In this document: positions 3,459 to 39,560 of the stretch, one piece after another
Position numbering within the stretch: position 1 is the first letter of the stretch
How the letters are laid out: each line of letters starts with the position of its first letter
DNA from: Clostridium mediterraneense
GTDB lineage: Bacteria; Bacillota; Clostridia; Clostridiales; Clostridiaceae
Assembly (NCBI RefSeq): GCF_900091705.1
Contig: NZ_LT594785.1
Location: 311,640-375,639, forward strand
DNA length: 64,000 nucleotides
Direction of reading: 5' to 3'
Position numbers and translations under genes: made by a program
The notes under the pieces: generated by a model
What the model was told of the DNA's origin: nothing
What the model saw: only the letters and a program-made list of their open reading frames with translations
The model's database searches: none

Positions 3459-5162
3459 TTGAAAAGTAGAGAGAAAAATATATATAGAAGAGTCTTTACA
3501 GTTTATACTGCTGTTATAATCTTGCTTATAGTCTCGTTAGATATATATTTTTTAAAATATTTTAGTGATAGTACAAAGGATAAAAATTTATACATAAATC
3601 AGCAAATGGTAAATGAGGTAGCTGGAAAACTTGATGAGGATCTTTCAGCAACTAATAGGATAATAGATGATATTTATTATCATAAGGATGTATTATTTGA
3701 TATGCTCAATTTTATAAATATGGATTTAAGTGAGTATAAAAAGCAAAGGCTTGATACTATAAGTGAAAGTACTAATATGGGGAATATCGGTACAGAGCTT
3801 TTTATAAAAAAGATATTTAATTCATATGAAAATTTAGAGAGTGTTGCTATAGTATCATTTAGCAGAGAAATGATTAGTACCTTTAATAGAAAGAACCAAA
3901 TAAAGTATGAAAAGATAAAGGATTATAGTCGATATGTGGATAAGAAAATAATACCGCATAAGGATTCTATAACTTATATAAGAAATATAAATAATACTGA
4001 GAATTTTAATAGTGCAGGACTTCTTATGTTAACCTTTAATATGAGTAATGTTGAGAATGTAGTAAAGGAGTATGATAGCTATAATAAAGTATCTATAGTG
4101 GATTCAGATAGAAATACTATATATGACTCTAATGGTGAATATAATTTTTATTATGGAAATATCATTGATAAAAAAGAGCTATTAAGTATAAAAGGGGGAA
4201 ATTATTTAAATGCAAAATATCAAGATGAAGATATAGCTGTAATAGGTAGAATATCTAAAGGGATAGCTGATAATATACCTTTAGGTGTATATGTTACTTT
4301 AATTTGTCTAGATTTAGTTGCATTTATAATGGCTGAAGCAATTATTTATTTAAAAATTAAAAAATTAAATAATAGAATGAATAAAGTAATAGTGGCCATG
4401 GATGAGGTTAAAGATGGAAACTTTGATATATCAATAGATGTTGGAGAAGAAAATGATGAGCTTAGTTATATAGCATTTAACTTTAATGAGATGTGTAAAA
4501 GGCTAAAGGAACATATAGAAAAAAGTTATTTAGCTGAGATAAACCAAAAAAATGCTGAAATGAAAGCACTTCAAAGTCAGATAAATCCACATTTCTTATA
4601 TAATACTTTAGAAGTTATAAGGATGAAAGCTATTTGTAGTGGAAATAAAGAGGTTGGAAAAATGCTATATAATCTAGCAACTTTATTTAGAAGTCAGCTT
4701 AAAGAGAAGGATATTATAACTATAAAAAGTGAAGTTGATTATTGTAAGAAGTATCTCGAACTTTTTAAGTTTAGATATAAAGAAAAGTTTAATTATGAGA
4801 TATATTGTGATGAATATTTACTAGGAAATAAAGTTATAAAATTTATTTTACAACCTTTAGTTGAAAACTACTTAATACATGGAATTAGGCTTGAAGATGA
4901 TGATAATATGATTGTAATTTCTATAGTAAGTGAAGATAAAGATATTCTTATTCATATTGAGGATAATGGTAAAGGGATTGATATAGAGAAAATAGATGAA
5001 ATAAATGAGAAGCTTAGTGAAAAGAAACATAATACAAGATCAATAGGAATATTAAATGTTAATGAGAGAATAAAAACATTATATGGAGAAAAATATGGAG
5101 TTTTAATTACTAAGGATATAAATTTAGGTACAAAAATATTAGTAAAAATTCCAAAGATATAG
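3459..5162 (+). CDS. YesM-type sensor histidine kinase
   Basis: 567 residues, full length. Membrane helices at about 13-33 and 275-298 enclose an extracellular sensor region. A HAMP segment follows (about 299-355), then the HisKA_5-type phosphoacceptor block ALQSQINPHFLYNTLE with His378, then an ATPase domain with N box LQPLVENYLIHG (Asn470) and G box EDNGKGID (501-508). The start is TTG at 3459, chosen because AGGGGGGC sits just upstream; no ATG nearby has a ribosome site. The response regulator follows after 12 bp. Kinases of this type sense extracellular oligosaccharide or the binding protein and switch on adjacent transporter operons. The ligand here is inferred to be a mannoside. Confidence 0.93.
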   Translation: MKSREKNIYRRVFTVYTAVIILLIVSLDIYFLKYFSDSTKDKNLYINQQMVNEVAGKLDEDLSATNRIIDDIYYHKDVLFDMLNFINMDLSEYKKQRLDTISESTNMGNIGTELFIKKIFNSYENLESVAIVSFSREMISTFNRKNQIKYEKIKDYSRYVDKKIIPHKDSITYIRNINNTENFNSAGLLMLTFNMSNVENVVKEYDSYNKVSIVDSDRNTIYDSNGEYNFYYGNIIDKKELLSIKGGNYLNAKYQDEDIAVIGRISKGIADNIPLGVYVTLICLDLVAFIMAEAIIYLKIKKLNNRMNKVIVAMDEVKDGNFDISIDVGEENDELSYIAFNFNEMCKRLKEHIEKSYLAEINQKNAEMKALQSQINPHFLYNTLEVIRMKAICSGNKEVGKMLYNLATLFRSQLKEKDIITIKSEVDYCKKYLELFKFRYKEKFNYEIYCDEYLLGNKVIKFILQPLVENYLIHGIRLEDDDNMIVISIVSEDKDILIHIEDNGKGIDIEKIDEINEKLSEKKHNTRSIGILNVNERIKTLYGEKYGVLITKDINLGTKILVKIPKI

Positions 5163-33888: not shown

Positions 33889-34272
33889 ATGGAAGCTAAA
33901 AAGTGCATATTAGTTTACGGATTAGATAATGATGAAATTAAAAATCTTGAAAAACTTCGTTTTAAAGTTTTACAAGTTACTCCTGAAATGACTAAGATGA
34001 AAATCAAAGATCTTATTGCTGAAAAAGAAGAAAAAGTTGCTTCAGAAACAAAGATTGAAGGAGAAAAGATTCTTGTTTTCAATAATATACCTGATATTCA
34101 ATTAAGAACAATAGTTGAACTTACTAAGAAAATAATCAAGAAGAAGCCTATTCTTGCAACAGTTACTGTAACATCAAATGAATGGGAATTTGATTATTTA
34201 GTTGAACATCTTATGGAAGAACGTGAATGGTTCAAGACAAATAGAGGAAGTGCTATGCATGAACAAGAATAG
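33889..34272 (+). CDS. DUF3783 family protein
   Basis: 127 residues. The start KKCILVYGLDNDEIKNLEKL and the block EGEKILVFNNIPDIQLRTIV fit DUF3783, a clostridial family of unknown function, with an alpha/beta, receiver-like secondary-structure pattern. GGGAGAG precedes the ATG. Its last 14 bases overlap the start of the XRE-type regulator gene, so translation of the two is probably coupled and their functions may be linked. Confidence 0.78.
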   Translation: MEAKKCILVYGLDNDEIKNLEKLRFKVLQVTPEMTKMKIKDLIAEKEEKVASETKIEGEKILVFNNIPDIQLRTIVELTKKIIKKKPILATVTVTSNEWEFDYLVEHLMEEREWFKTNRGSAMHEQE

Positions 34273-34948
34273 AGTTGGAGAAAAAATTAAAGAAGTTAGA
34301 CTTTCTCAAGGTTTAACTCAAAAAGCTCTTGGAAAAAAGCTAGGTGTTAATGATAAATTTATTAACGATGTTGAACTTGGAAGAAAGATAATTAATGAAG
34401 CTTTAATAAGCAAGATTTCTAAAGTTTTAAAAGTAGATTTAAACGATGTAAGTATGCTTGCTACTGATGCAGAACTTGAAAAAGAAAAATCAGAAATTAG
34501 AAAACAAGAAGAAGTTAAGTATCAAAAGCCAAAAACAGAAGTTAATGAAATGTGGAGTCAAGCTTTTGGTTCAAACTTAAAGAATGTGCCTATATATAAT
34601 TATGGTCTAAATAAAGCTTTAGGTCATAGACAACTTCCTATGAGTTCAAGTAAAATTGATGGTCACGCATCAGATAAAGTATTCTATATACAAATAGAAG
34701 AAAATGATATGACTGGATTTAGAATTCAAAAGGGTGATATGGCACTTTGTTATAGTATCAAAGAAATTGAAAATAATACTATAGCTTTAGTTGAACATAA
34801 AGGAAAAAGAGTTGTAAGACAAATTAAAAAACTTGATAACTCTAAAGTTCTTTTAGTAAGTAATGGTGGAAGTATGATGACTGAAACTGCTGTAATAAAA
34901 GAATTAACTCCAATAGCAACACTTTATAGAATAGAATTTAATCTATAA
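34259..34948 (+). CDS. XRE family regulator with a degenerate S24/LexA-like C-terminal domain
   Basis: 229 residues from the ATG at 34259, served by AGAGGAAG; longer starts lie within the upstream gene. Residues 1-65 form a Cro/C1-type HTH (SQGLTQKALGKKLGVNDKFI). The C-terminal half (about 120-229) resembles the S24/LexA fold: VFYIQIEENDMTGFRIQKGDMALC, then VRQIKKLDNSKVLLVSNG. The usual catalytic Ser-Met pair of S24 peptidases reads Asp-Met, so autocleavage seems lost. It may bind a ligand or dimerise instead. The target is unknown. Confidence 0.82.
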   Translation: MNKNRVGEKIKEVRLSQGLTQKALGKKLGVNDKFINDVELGRKIINEALISKISKVLKVDLNDVSMLATDAELEKEKSEIRKQEEVKYQKPKTEVNEMWSQAFGSNLKNVPIYNYGLNKALGHRQLPMSSSKIDGHASDKVFYIQIEENDMTGFRIQKGDMALCYSIKEIENNTIALVEHKGKRVVRQIKKLDNSKVLLVSNGGSMMTETAVIKELTPIATLYRIEFNL

Positions 34949-34957
34949 TAAATTTTT

Positions 34958-35005
34958 TAAAGCTGTGCAGAAATAATAAATATTATTTCTGCACAGCTTT
35001 TTTTA
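34958..35005 (+). terminator. Terminator of the DUF3783/XRE operon
   Basis: AAAGCTGTGCAGAAATAAT pairs perfectly with ATTATTTCTGCACAGCTTT, followed by TTTTATTT. Confidence 0.93.
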
Positions 35006-35086: not shown

Positions 35087-35173
35087 TGTGGATAACTTTT
35101 AAGAGTGAAACCTGTGGATAACTTTTTAATTTCATATCTGTGGATAACTTTTGTTTTTTAGAATTGTGAATAA
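35087..35173 (-). repeat. Four DnaA boxes at exact 26-bp spacing
   Basis: TGTGGATAA at 35087-35095, 35113-35121 and 35139-35147, and TGTGAATAA at 35165-35173. The first three are the complement of the consensus TTATCCACA; the fourth is a TTATTCACA variant. All point the same way and start 26 bp apart, about 2.5 helical turns. Flanking bases are partly repeated too (GAAAC.TGTGGATAACTTTT). No dnaA or dnaN gene is near, so this is a DnaA-binding cluster rather than a typical origin. The gap of 448 bp around it also holds the hairpin at 35181 and the csp promoter. Confidence 0.85.
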
Positions 35174-35180
35174 GAAAAGA

Positions 35181-35250
35181 AAAAAGGCTACCAACTTCAA
35201 AAATTAAAAATTTGTATTTATAAGATTTAATTTTTGTCAGTAGGTAGCTC
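35181..35250 (-). terminator. Minus-strand terminator-like hairpin without an obvious gene
   Basis: On the - strand GCTACC...CAAAAATTAAA pairs with TTTTTAATTTTTG...GGTAGC, then CCTTTTTTCTTTTC. The T-rich tail lies on the - strand side, so it would stop leftward transcription, yet no leftward gene ends here. A short RNA starting within about 150 bp to the right is possible. Confidence 0.5.
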
Positions 35251-35338
35251 TTATTAATTATGTATTAAAAAGAAATTTATATAAATAAATTTGATAATGA
35301 CTTAATTAATTTAACACAAGGGACAAAATATTTCAATA

Positions 35339-35365
35339 ACTAAATCAACTTACTTGAATACTTTA
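35339..35365 (+). promoter_or_regulatory. Candidate SigK-type promoter of the csp gene
   Basis: AC (35339-35340), 16 bp, AATACTTTA (35357-35365): one mismatch from AC-N16/17-CATANNNTA. It lies about 30 nt before the ribosome site. csp and sleC of C. perfringens are expressed in the mother cell during sporulation, which fits. Confidence 0.4.
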
Positions 35366-35396
35366 TATATAGTAGAGTAATAAGTTTTAAATTGGG

Positions 35397-38300
35397 GTGA
35401 TTAACATAGAAACTAGTAGTTATTATTATAGGGATTTCATAAGTGGAGTACCTCAAGAAACTATAGATAATGTTATAAAGTTTATTTATGAGCATCAGGG
35501 GAGTAATGATTATATAGAAATTGTAGTTTTATTTGGGAATAATGCAGCTTTAGTTGCAGAGTCTGCTAAAGAAATAGGTGCAAAATTTGAAGACCTTGGA
35601 ATGGGCTATGGAATTATAGGTATAAAGGGAAGTGACTTTAGAAAGTTATCACAATTAAAAGGTGTTCAATATGCAGAGTTTCCTAAAATATTTACAACCA
35701 CAGGTATACAAAGTAATACTGCAAGTTGTATTCCAAGAGTTTGGGAGCAATACAATCTTAGTGGAAAAGGAGTTTTAATTGGATTTATTGATACTGGAAT
35801 AGATTATACTCATCCTTCTTTTCTTGATTCTACTGGTAAAACAAGAATTGAATATATATATGATATTTATACAGCAACATCATATAATAAAGCGCAAATA
35901 GATCAAGCTCTTGCTTCACCTGATCCACAATCAATAGTTCCAGAAGAAGACCTTATAGGACATGGGACAGCAGTAGCATCTGTTGCTGCCGGAGGTGGTA
36001 ATCTTGGAAGAAATAATTATGGTGTTGCTTATGAAGCTTCAATAGCTATGGTTAAAGTTACAGGTAAAGGTACTTTTACATCTATTTTAAGTACACAAAT
36101 TATGAGGGGACTTAAATTTCTTATTGATAAAAGTAATGAATCAAATATGCCTCTTGTTGTAAATATAAGTCTTAGTTCGAATGATGGGGCTCATAATGGA
36201 AGTAGTCTTATAGAAAAATATATTCAAGAATTTTCTCAGATTCAAAGAGTAGCTATTGTTATTGCAGCAGGAAATGAAGGTGAAGCAGGACATCACTATA
36301 GTTCTAATTTAGAACTTAGTAATGAAATTTTTTTCAATATAGCAGGTGGCGAAACAAATATGATTTTACAATTATATAAGCCACCACTATCTGAGATAAC
36401 TATAGAAGTTGTTGCACCTTCAGGACAAACAACTGGAAGAGTGTCAATTAATGAAGGTGCAAAAAGACTAAATCTTGGTGCTCAAAGATGTGTTATTTAT
36501 AATAGTGGTCCTAAACCTTTTGATGCTGCTGGTGAAATAAGTATTAATATAATTCCAAATGGAAATACCATTGATCCGGGAGAATGGCAGGTAAATATAA
36601 AAAGAATTAATCAATATGATGGTATTTTTGATATATGGTTACCTATTGCTGAGGCTTTAAGCCCTGATACAAAATTTTTGCAACCAGATCCTTTTAATAC
36701 ATTAGGAATTCCAGCAACTGTTGATGGGGTTATTTCTGTTGGAAGTTATGATTTTACTGCAAATAATTATTCTGCTTTTTCAGGTAGAGGAATACACCGA
36801 GTAGGAAGTATTAGAAAACCAGATTTGTTAGCTCCAGGTCAAAATATTATGGCAGCTAATGTAGGAGGTGGTTTTGCTCCGGAGACAGGAACTTCAGTTG
36901 CAGCACCTCAAGTAGCTGGTATGTGTGCACTTATTTTACAATGGGGAATTGTAAAAAATAATGATGCTTTTGTTTTTGGAGAAAGATTAAAATATTATTT
37001 AATTAAAGGAGCTAAAAGAACTAGAATGGATGTAGTTTATCCTACAAGAGAATCAGGGTATGGATTTATGTGTGGTGCAGATAGTATGAGTCTTTTAAGT
37101 AATGATACAAGTACTGGTGGTTTGTTATTAACTTCTGGGCAGGATGAAGAAGAGGAAAAATTAGTTTTTGCACCAAGTGGAGATAATAATGAATTAATTG
37201 ATATGAAAGATAAAAGAGCTACTCCTATACCAGGAAATATAACTAATCAAGATTTAAGTAATGTGAATATGTCTGTAAATTCTGATCCCATTTTAAATCC
37301 TAGTGGAAATCCAGATGTAAATCAAAGTTTAAATATAAGTCCAAATCAAGGAAGTATTAATTCTCCAGCTGGTGTAGTAACTAATGGAAATGCTATAAAT
37401 CAAGTCACAGGTGTTACTCAAAATATAAATCAAATAACACAATCTACTGGAGTAACTGGCTTAAATGTGGTAACAGGAGCAACTGGAGTAACTAATGAAA
37501 ATATTAATACAAATCAAGCCACAGGTGTTACTCAAAATTTAAATCAAATAACACAAATTACAGGAATAACTGGTCCAACTATGATAACAGGAGTTACTGG
37601 AGCAACATCTGTAACAGGAACAACTGGAGAAACTATATTTTCAGCAACCCAAGGATATGTAGATCTTAATATAGATAGTCAAACTGTTTATGGTAAAACA
37701 ACTAAGCTACATTATTTAACCACTGGATTTGTTGATTTTTTAGTTCAGTATAAAGGTGATTTAATTGCAGCTGTAGAAAAAATAAATGATAAGGCTTCAG
37801 CTTTTGCACTTGATAGAAATTATGCAATTGTTTCTGTAAGAGTTGAAGATTATAGACAGATTCTTTTATCAATTGATGAAATAGTTTATATAGATAGTGG
37901 TGGGGTTTATACTTTAGAAGCTGTAAGTCCGGCAGAAGCATCCCAAGCTAATACATTTCATTATAATCCATATTTAAATCTTACAGGTTATGGTACAATT
38001 ATCGGAATTATTGATACAGGAATTGATTATTTAAATAAAGATTTTATAAAAGCTGATAATACAACTAATATAATTAGAATATGGGATCAAGGAATTAGTA
38101 CTGGACCAACACCTAGCACTATATTTTTTGGAACTGAATATAAAGAACAGGATATAAATAGGGCATTAAATGAAAGTTTAAATGGAGGAGACCCATATTC
38201 AATAGTACCAAGTAGAGATATAAATGGACATGGAACTGCTATGGCAGGACTTATTGCAGGAAGAGGTAATAATGCAGAGCAAGGTATAGCTTTTGATGCA

Positions 38301-39560
38301 TCTATAGCTATGGTTAAATTACACACAGCTAATGAGCAGTATAGAAATTATTTTGGAACTAATGGTAAAACAGAATATCAATATAGAAATACAGATATTC
38401 TTCTTGGAATAAAATATTTATCAGACCTTGCTAAACAATTAGTAAAACCAATGGTAATTTTTATACCACTTGGAACTACAATAGGAGCACATGATGGAAG
38501 TTCAGTTATAGAAAGGTATATAGATGACATTTCACAAGATAGTGGACTTATTGTAGTTACATCAACAGGCAATCAAGGTCTTGCAGAAAATCATACAGCT
38601 GGAAAAATAGATAAACAAGGTGAAACAAAGAGTATAGAACTTTATGTAGATACAAATCAAACAGATTTACTTATGAATATATATATTACAAGGCCAGATA
38701 GAATGGGACTTTCAATTGTTTCTCCAGCTGGTGAAGCAGTTGGAAATATAACTCCTAAAAAGAGAGAGGGAACTGTAGTAAATTTTGTTCTTGAAGGAAG
38801 TAGTATGAATGTTATGTTTATTGAGCCAGATGAGCATACAGGTGATGAAATAATAGTAGTAAGGGCAACAAATCTTAGACCAGGAATATGGAATTTTGGA
38901 TTAATAGGTGAATATATAGTTAATGGTACCTATAATGCATGGCTTGTTCAAAGAGAACTTTTAGAACCAAAAACTAGATTTTTAAGTCCTACACAATATA
39001 CAACCTTGACACTTCCAGCAACATCATCTTATATAATTCCTGTTGCTTATTATAATCAAAATATTAATGCTACTGTTTCACAATCAGGAAGAGGTTATAC
39101 AAGAGATGGTAGAATATCGCCAATTATTGCAGCAGGTGGGGTAGATGCAATTGTAACAGCTCCTAATAATAGAAAAACAATGATGACAGGAGGAAGTATT
39201 GCAGGTGCAGTTATTTCAGGATGTTGTTGTCAACTTCTTCAATGGGGGATAGTAAATAAAAATGATGTAACTATGTATGCAAGAAAAGTACAAACTTATC
39301 TTATGAGAGGAACAGATCAAAGAATTGGAGATATATATCCAAATGAACAATGGGGATTTGGGGTTATTAATATGCAAAAGCTATTTGATAATATAAAAGG
39401 TTCTGTTTTATCAAATGATAAGAGTATAGGAACTAGTCCGGTTGGTTTTAGAGAAGATGAAAGAATATATATAGATACTGAAGAAGCAGGAATTATAGCT
39501 GTAAATAATAAAAATGAATTTAATATAGGAAGTTTATATATTAGGAATCCTATTATTTAA
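35397..39560 (+). CDS. Fused double Csp-type subtilisin germination protease
   Basis: 1,387 residues: prodomain (about 1-105), S8 protease I (about 110-570), Asn/Thr/Gly-rich linker (about 571-750), second prodomain-like part (about 751-850), S8 domain II (about 855-1340). Domain I has Asp132 (IDTGIDY), His189 (IGHGTA), oxyanion Asn293 (AAGNEG) and Ser500 (GTSVAAPQ). Domain II has Asp873, His945, Asn1059 and Ser1267, but the serine motif is altered (GGSIAGAV). Each domain carries the large insert typical of Csp proteases, which cleave pro-SleC in germinating spores; sleC follows. C. perfringens has separate cspA/B/C and C. difficile a CspBA fusion. There is no ATG start: GTG 35397 overlaps the ribosome site GGGGTGA, while ATA 35406 is ideally spaced. 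Confidence 0.9.
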   Translation: MINIETSSYYYRDFISGVPQETIDNVIKFIYEHQGSNDYIEIVVLFGNNAALVAESAKEIGAKFEDLGMGYGIIGIKGSDFRKLSQLKGVQYAEFPKIFTTTGIQSNTASCIPRVWEQYNLSGKGVLIGFIDTGIDYTHPSFLDSTGKTRIEYIYDIYTATSYNKAQIDQALASPDPQSIVPEEDLIGHGTAVASVAAGGGNLGRNNYGVAYEASIAMVKVTGKGTFTSILSTQIMRGLKFLIDKSNESNMPLVVNISLSSNDGAHNGSSLIEKYIQEFSQIQRVAIVIAAGNEGEAGHHYSSNLELSNEIFFNIAGGETNMILQLYKPPLSEITIEVVAPSGQTTGRVSINEGAKRLNLGAQRCVIYNSGPKPFDAAGEISINIIPNGNTIDPGEWQVNIKRINQYDGIFDIWLPIAEALSPDTKFLQPDPFNTLGIPATVDGVISVGSYDFTANNYSAFSGRGIHRVGSIRKPDLLAPGQNIMAANVGGGFAPETGTSVAAPQVAGMCALILQWGIVKNNDAFVFGERLKYYLIKGAKRTRMDVVYPTRESGYGFMCGADSMSLLSNDTSTGGLLLTSGQDEEEEKLVFAPSGDNNELIDMKDKRATPIPGNITNQDLSNVNMSVNSDPILNPSGNPDVNQSLNISPNQGSINSPAGVVTNGNAINQVTGVTQNINQITQSTGVTGLNVVTGATGVTNENINTNQATGVTQNLNQITQITGITGPTMITGVTGATSVTGTTGETIFSATQGYVDLNIDSQTVYGKTTKLHYLTTGFVDFLVQYKGDLIAAVEKINDKASAFALDRNYAIVSVRVEDYRQILLSIDEIVYIDSGGVYTLEAVSPAEASQANTFHYNPYLNLTGYGTIIGIIDTGIDYLNKDFIKADNTTNIIRIWDQGISTGPTPSTIFFGTEYKEQDINRALNESLNGGDPYSIVPSRDINGHGTAMAGLIAGRGNNAEQGIAFDASIAMVKLHTANEQYRNYFGTNGKTEYQYRNTDILLGIKYLSDLAKQLVKPMVIFIPLGTTIGAHDGSSVIERYIDDISQDSGLIVVTSTGNQGLAENHTAGKIDKQGETKSIELYVDTNQTDLLMNIYITRPDRMGLSIVSPAGEAVGNITPKKREGTVVNFVLEGSSMNVMFIEPDEHTGDEIIVVRATNLRPGIWNFGLIGEYIVNGTYNAWLVQRELLEPKTRFLSPTQYTTLTLPATSSYIIPVAYYNQNINATVSQSGRGYTRDGRISPIIAAGGVDAIVTAPNNRKTMMTGGSIAGAVISGCCCQLLQWGIVNKNDVTMYARKVQTYLMRGTDQRIGDIYPNEQWGFGVINMQKLFDNIKGSVLSNDKSIGTSPVGFREDERIYIDTEEAGIIAVNNKNEFNIGSLYIRNPII
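37398..37631 (+). repeat. Duplicated 117-bp unit encoding a collagen-like linker
   Basis: Two tandem copies of about 39 codons (residues 668-706 and 707-745) share NQ-TGVTQN-NQITQ followed by TG-V/I-TG triplets. Read as Gly-X-Thr, stretches such as GVTGATSVTGTTG resemble the collagen-like repeats of exosporium proteins. The DNA copies are about 80 percent alike, with several silent and a few amino-acid differences. Confidence 0.8.

Follow-up and report, generated by a model that had tools for sequence, protein, structure and literature searches.

Whether bacterial replication is timed by titration of DnaA on chromosomal sites has been debated for decades, and the direct evidence from E. coli is recent. 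The datA and DARS elements of E. coli are, like the belt of perfect TTATCCACA boxes described here, non-oriC DnaA-box clusters, and they alter DnaA availability; they are single loci that need IHF/Fis and act on the ATP/ADP state, whereas the belt consists of many small islands. In E. coli, DnaA boxes are concentrated near oriC and DnaA is titrated, and in both E. coli and Salmonella the boxes, as here, accumulate around oriC with titration as their proposed use (PMC12371093). For E. coli a mild enrichment of about 2 SD across some 900 loosely defined boxes is described (PMC12371093); in the present genome, by contrast, it is 13-fold, confined to the perfect 9-mer and biased towards one arm.

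The belt is best read as a larger counterpart of the DnaA-box clusters (DBCs) of B. subtilis (Okumura et al., 2012), taken here as they are presented in PMC5295017 and PMC4447404. As far as those accounts go, deletion of six clusters leads to early initiation (PMC5295017), and four of the six (trmE, yydA, ywcI/vpr, ywlC) lie, by the coordinates in PMC4447404, less than about 440 kb from oriC on the trmE/rpmH side; like the belt, they are clusters of consensus boxes outside oriC on the same side of the origin, and another cluster, gcp/ydiF, lies between gene 3' ends, where sites here are mostly at the 3' ends of genes. Unlike the B. subtilis clusters so described, the belt comprises about 35 evenly spaced loci on one arm, has defined geometries (direct at 26-27 bp, inverted at 21-22 bp, convergent at 30 bp), and includes boxes apparently kept by codon choice; YabA was also undetected, with no match in seven of seven genomes of the genus by a search that finds the B. 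subtilis and Lactococcus proteins.

The window (the whole stretch analysed, 64,000 nucleotides, C5:311640-375639 of a 3.08-Mb assembly in five contigs) contains three belt sites, one of them the array of four boxes between a regulator gene and csp. Gene calls are longest ORFs. The features are:

3935..3943, minus strand: single belt box within a 567-aa ORF, in-frame GTG-GAT-AA
6743..6781, no strand assigned: second belt site, an intergenic convergent pair TTATTCACA / TGTGGATAA with starts 30 bp apart
34250..34948, plus strand: HTH_3 + Peptidase_S24 regulator gene (longest ORF starts at 34202), the cluster's left neighbour in most relatives
34961..35005, plus strand: ordinary intrinsic terminator of the regulator gene, a GC-richer stem and T run separate from the boxes
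35087..35095, minus strand: DnaA box 1, TTATCCACA, reading TGTGGATAACTTTT on the plus strand
35113..35121, minus strand: DnaA box 2, TTATCCACA, extended AAGTTATCCACAGG, 26 bp from box 1
35139..35147, minus strand: DnaA box 3, TTATCCACA, extended AAGTTATCCACAG, 26 bp from box 2
35165..35173, minus strand: DnaA box 4, the variant TTATTCACA, 26 bp from box 3
35187..35250, minus strand: long terminator-like hairpin (z = -4.7) with a T run after it, separating the boxes from csp
35305..35396, plus strand: block upstream of csp conserved in two sister species as well, ATTTAACACAA..TTCAATAAC..GAATA
35397..39560, plus strand: csp, a fused two-domain germination protease of 1387 aa (CspB prodomain and subtilase domains)

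Read directly from the sequence, the array is three TGTGGATAA and one TGTGAATAA on one strand at 35087-35173, with start-to-start distances of 26, 26 and 26 bp, in a 448-bp gap between the end of the upstream ORF at 34948 and the start of csp at 35397; the first-pass annotation had described the four boxes, their coordinates, phasing, single direction and gap exactly. It had also judged the pattern too regular for chance, and this is borne out: 150 simulated 64-kb windows (second-order Markov) gave zero direct pairs at 24-28 bp and zero equally spaced triples, against three and two, respectively, in the real window. About 3e-10 equally spaced four-box arrays would be expected by chance genome-wide, and the direct-pair pattern has nine matches in the whole genome against none for its reversed control. 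An Rfam search of the region returned chance microRNA matches only.

DBCs have been defined as at least three boxes averaging under 100 bp apart (as quoted in PMC7561715); the array has four at 26 bp, lies outside oriC yet in its neighbourhood (C5:346.7 kb, against C5:135.7-137.9 kb for oriC), and its boxes match those of the organism's own origin, the same AGTTATCCACA being present in oriC. An origin would be expected to adjoin dnaA and dnaN, and neither gene is in the window, as had been pointed out in setting the array apart from the usual oriC, which is 210 kb away. A second oriC was rejected on these grounds, the true one having been located elsewhere: it is flanked by dnaN and dnaA on one side and by rnpA, jag, mnmE, mnmG and rsmG on the other, holds 24 TTATCCACA copies and coincides with a change in the sign of GC skew, which changes again near 1.5-1.6 Mb. 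The organism's DnaA is canonical, with a GRDHTT motif, and the boxes of oriC and of the belt share both their sequence and the same AAGTTATCCACA flank.

The surroundings of the array have some features of their own. The gene name csp from the first-pass annotation holds, with the product a Csp germination protease (CspB prodomain plus subtilase) and not a cold-shock protein. Its two subtilase units are fused through a collagen-like, GVTG-rich linker; the fused form also occurs in genome G003, while G002 and G005 have separate csp genes. The peptidoglycan-binding protein encoded after csp is probably SleC. No minus-strand gene is evident at the hairpin at 35187-35250, which could end an antisense or small transcript. 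The block at 35305-35396, beyond the boxes on the csp side, is probably the csp promoter region.

A genome-wide count and cluster map, which the first-pass annotation had proposed as a check, gave 103 TTATCCACA copies concentrated near oriC. Outside oriC there are 79, of which 61 lie in C5:1-717.5k, a stretch that includes the origin: the mnmE side holds 55, the last of them at 704 kb (9.7 per 100 kb), and the dnaN side six (4.4 per 100 kb). The other 2.37 Mb of the genome has 18 (0.76 per 100 kb). The density on the mnmE-side replichore is thus 13-fold over background (Poisson P about 3e-40), a skew to one arm that assumes that contigs C1-C4 (451 kb, three TTATCCACA listed) belong on the dnaN side or far off. 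Beyond +567 kb the density equals background. On the mnmE side the belt extends from oriC as far as +567 kb; on the dnaN side it is weak and reaches -130 kb. Three near-identical 9-mers, TTAT[AGT]CACA, are a good internal control: they are unenriched in the same stretch, with 18 found and 21 expected. The extended, oriC-type AGTTATCCACA occurs 48 times, against five for its reversed control, and all copies fall at C5:88-633 kb, less than 500 kb from oriC. Leading-strand composition bias was considered and rejected, because the GC-skew arm reaches about 1.5 Mb while the boxes end at 704 kb, and because the near-identical 9-mers are unenriched.

Another feature of the belt is the regularity of its spacing. 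The mnmE-side loci (about 34-35) are some 17 kb apart and more even than random placement would give: the coefficient of variation of locus spacing is 0.54-0.57, against about 0.93 for random placement (P <= 0.0006, merging distances up to 1 kb), a result that is the same at every merging distance tried and that comes from a test devised after the map was seen.

Boxes are arranged in several ways: in direct arrays at 26-27 bp (the four-box array here and others at 461.8, 473.5 and 528.2 kb), in inverted pairs TGTGGATAACTTTT-AAAAGTTATCCACA whose starts are separated by 21-22 bp, in convergent pairs 30 bp apart, and singly. The inverted-pair pattern has 6-10 matches in the source genome, G003 and G004, and 0-1 in the other 185 genomes of the family. 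Belt sites are mostly at gene 3' ends, most intergenic clusters starting 5-140 bp past a stop codon, and roughly one in two inverted pairs is a canonical terminator, recalling the paired DNA-uptake sequences that serve as terminators. Outside the window, intrinsic terminators with stems made of two inverted DnaA boxes are found at C5:259374, 413923, 473485, 517099 and 573447 (loci L066, L069, L054, L055 and L070), one of the five starting 5 bp past a stop codon. Intragenic boxes occur in a short-chain dehydrogenase (SDR) gene, a methionyl-tRNA synthetase (metG-like) gene, spoIIE and an sbcC-like gene; the SDR and methionyl-tRNA synthetase genes each contain an inverted pair, the latter shared with G004. 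A purely terminator-derived motif was rejected in view of these two intragenic pairs, and a copied repeat or MITE in view of the four geometries and the unrelated spacer sequences.

Within genes the box reads T-GTG-GAT-AA (Val-Asp-Asn/Lys). GTG makes up 4.7% of valine codons overall, and it is used in 21 of 65 T-preceded Val-Asp-Asn/Lys sites, where it completes a box, compared with four of 62 otherwise (Fisher P 2.6e-4); this enrichment suggests that even single boxes in genes near oriC are maintained. For the rest of the genome the share is about 6%, a rough estimate, since the samples there were centred on boxes, and the comparison with the coding sites is likewise an estimate.

Conservation in relatives, the support that the first-pass annotation had looked for, was found at the regulator/csp locus, where a cluster is present in seven of eight testable other species, with altered geometry and in three of them inside csp; G001 and G005, in which contig ends cut the gap, are left out of this count. 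In G003 (a convergent pair), G004 (direct at 26 and convergent at 30 bp) and G006 (three tight boxes), clusters occupy the regulator-csp interval or immediately precede csp. G002 has no cluster at csp; about 7 kb away, in the gap between carB and a VanZ-like gene, it has a 26-bp array of four boxes with a fifth box 67 bp on, and the corresponding carB site of G001 also carries an array. These five-box arrays (three or four boxes at 26 bp; L056:13209-13362 and L057:520-791) include, in G001, two nearly identical versions on different contigs. Four further Clostridium genomes, named or catalogued, were found through the regulator (about 55% identity), and all four (a horse-faeces MAG, C. polynesiense, D53t1 and K13) have boxes at the locus. 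In the first three these are in-frame boxes within csp prodomain codons, at distances of 21 and 63 bp. The MAG and D53t1 use GTG at three of three box sites, against GTG shares of 8.5% and 4.4%, respectively, among valine codons in the genes examined; the C. polynesiense codons are weak evidence, because GTG is commoner there (25%). K13 lacks the csp coding boxes and has two in the intergenic gap, with upstream genes nearly identical to those of D53t1. The csp-locus boxes thus show turnover with retention, presence being kept while position and geometry change, and the promoter-proximal block of csp is conserved separately from them.

Beyond this locus, about 29 of 37 extended-box loci retrieved from G003 and G004, which include some duplicate contigs of G004, map to the same 717 kb of the source genome. 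Boxes in the jag-mnmE gap of G001 and G002 (L158:2104-2149 and L160:2157) are in the position of the B. subtilis trmE cluster, which suggests an old conserved site. Across the family such a belt is not the rule: few AGTTATCCACA occur in most of the 188 genomes surveyed, with 29 copies counted in G005. G084 and G162 have 66 and 51, mostly singletons on many contigs and often at contig ends; as scattered singletons these were set aside, probably representing a different, repeat-borne motif of other clostridial genera.

What might such boxes be for? One possibility is that DnaA at the array is a transcription factor tying csp, or the regulator upstream, to replication status, as at the B. subtilis sda promoter. 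The array is indeed upstream of csp, a cluster is next to csp in eight species including the source species, and B. subtilis DnaA regulates genes adjoining its clusters (PMC4447404); but at least about 220 bp and a hairpin separate the boxes from the csp start, their geometry varies freely, the promoter-proximal block is conserved apart from them, they fall within csp codons in three species, and elsewhere in the belt dozens of sites adjoin unrelated genes or are inside genes (metG-like, spoIIE, sbcC-like). We consider this role unlikely, and less likely than titration. That the boxes are mere by-products of terminator stems, dispersed repeats, or codon or composition bias is very improbable. 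Terminators do account for about half of the inverted pairs and many boxes do encode Val-Asp-Asn/Lys, but terminators and codons are genome-wide and the belt is localised; moreover, single-letter variants of the box are unenriched, the reversed control is flat, palindromes also occur within genes, and four geometries exclude one copied repeat.

Another possibility is that the belt marks out a domain around the origin, to be used in folding, segregation or the capture of the chromosome during sporulation, and is read through DnaA or by another protein recognising the motif. The even spacing of about 17 kb, the sharp end at +567 kb and the skew to one replichore would suit such a mark, and evenness in particular is better explained by it than by titration, which does not obviously need it; even spacing could equally well serve a structural role. 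Against this, the motif does not differ from the DnaA box of oriC, even in its flank, no second protein is known to read it, and the known origin-domain marks (parS, Noc sites) differ in sequence. A domain-marking role is also judged to be unlikely.

The reading that we favour, as a probable one, is that the four boxes form a high-affinity island for DnaA binding, one of many in a titration belt of perfect TTATCCACA boxes near the origin. DnaA would bind the belt boxes; dozens of them would be duplicated by the forks soon after initiation, leaving too little free DnaA for oriC and blocking re-initiation until enough new DnaA had been made. How many boxes there are and where they lie would be under selection, rather than their geometry or the neighbouring gene, and boxes would therefore sit where they are cheapest: at gene 3' ends, in terminator stems and on synonymous codons. 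DnaA occupancy of the belt and its effect on initiation are predictions from sequence; the pattern fits initiator titration because the boxes match oriC, are duplicated early, ignore neighbouring genes and are placed where they disturb least. The first-pass annotation had offered titration and control of neighbouring genes as alternatives. Titration accords with perfect boxes near oriC, with conserved position and changing geometry, and with placement at gene 3' ends, while gene control is weakened by the independently conserved promoter block and by boxes inside csp in three Clostridium genomes. Similar arrays scattered over the genome without conservation would have counted against the proposal; those found are origin-proximal and conserved.

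A broader proposal is more tentative, and we hold it as a possibility somewhat short of even: that in this genus, where YabA goes undetected, the main limit on initiation is a DnaA-titration “ruler”: about 60 perfect boxes, evenly spaced and mostly on one arm, that lie no more than 570 kb from oriC, are concealed in terminator stems and are maintained by selection even at synonymous codons. Whether some 55 boxes could affect initiation strongly would depend on the number of DnaA copies. A Firmicute without detectable YabA whose perfect boxes form a compact, strongly defined, one-sided and even set would make a clean natural test system, one in which putative replication-control sites constrain codon choice and terminator sequence.
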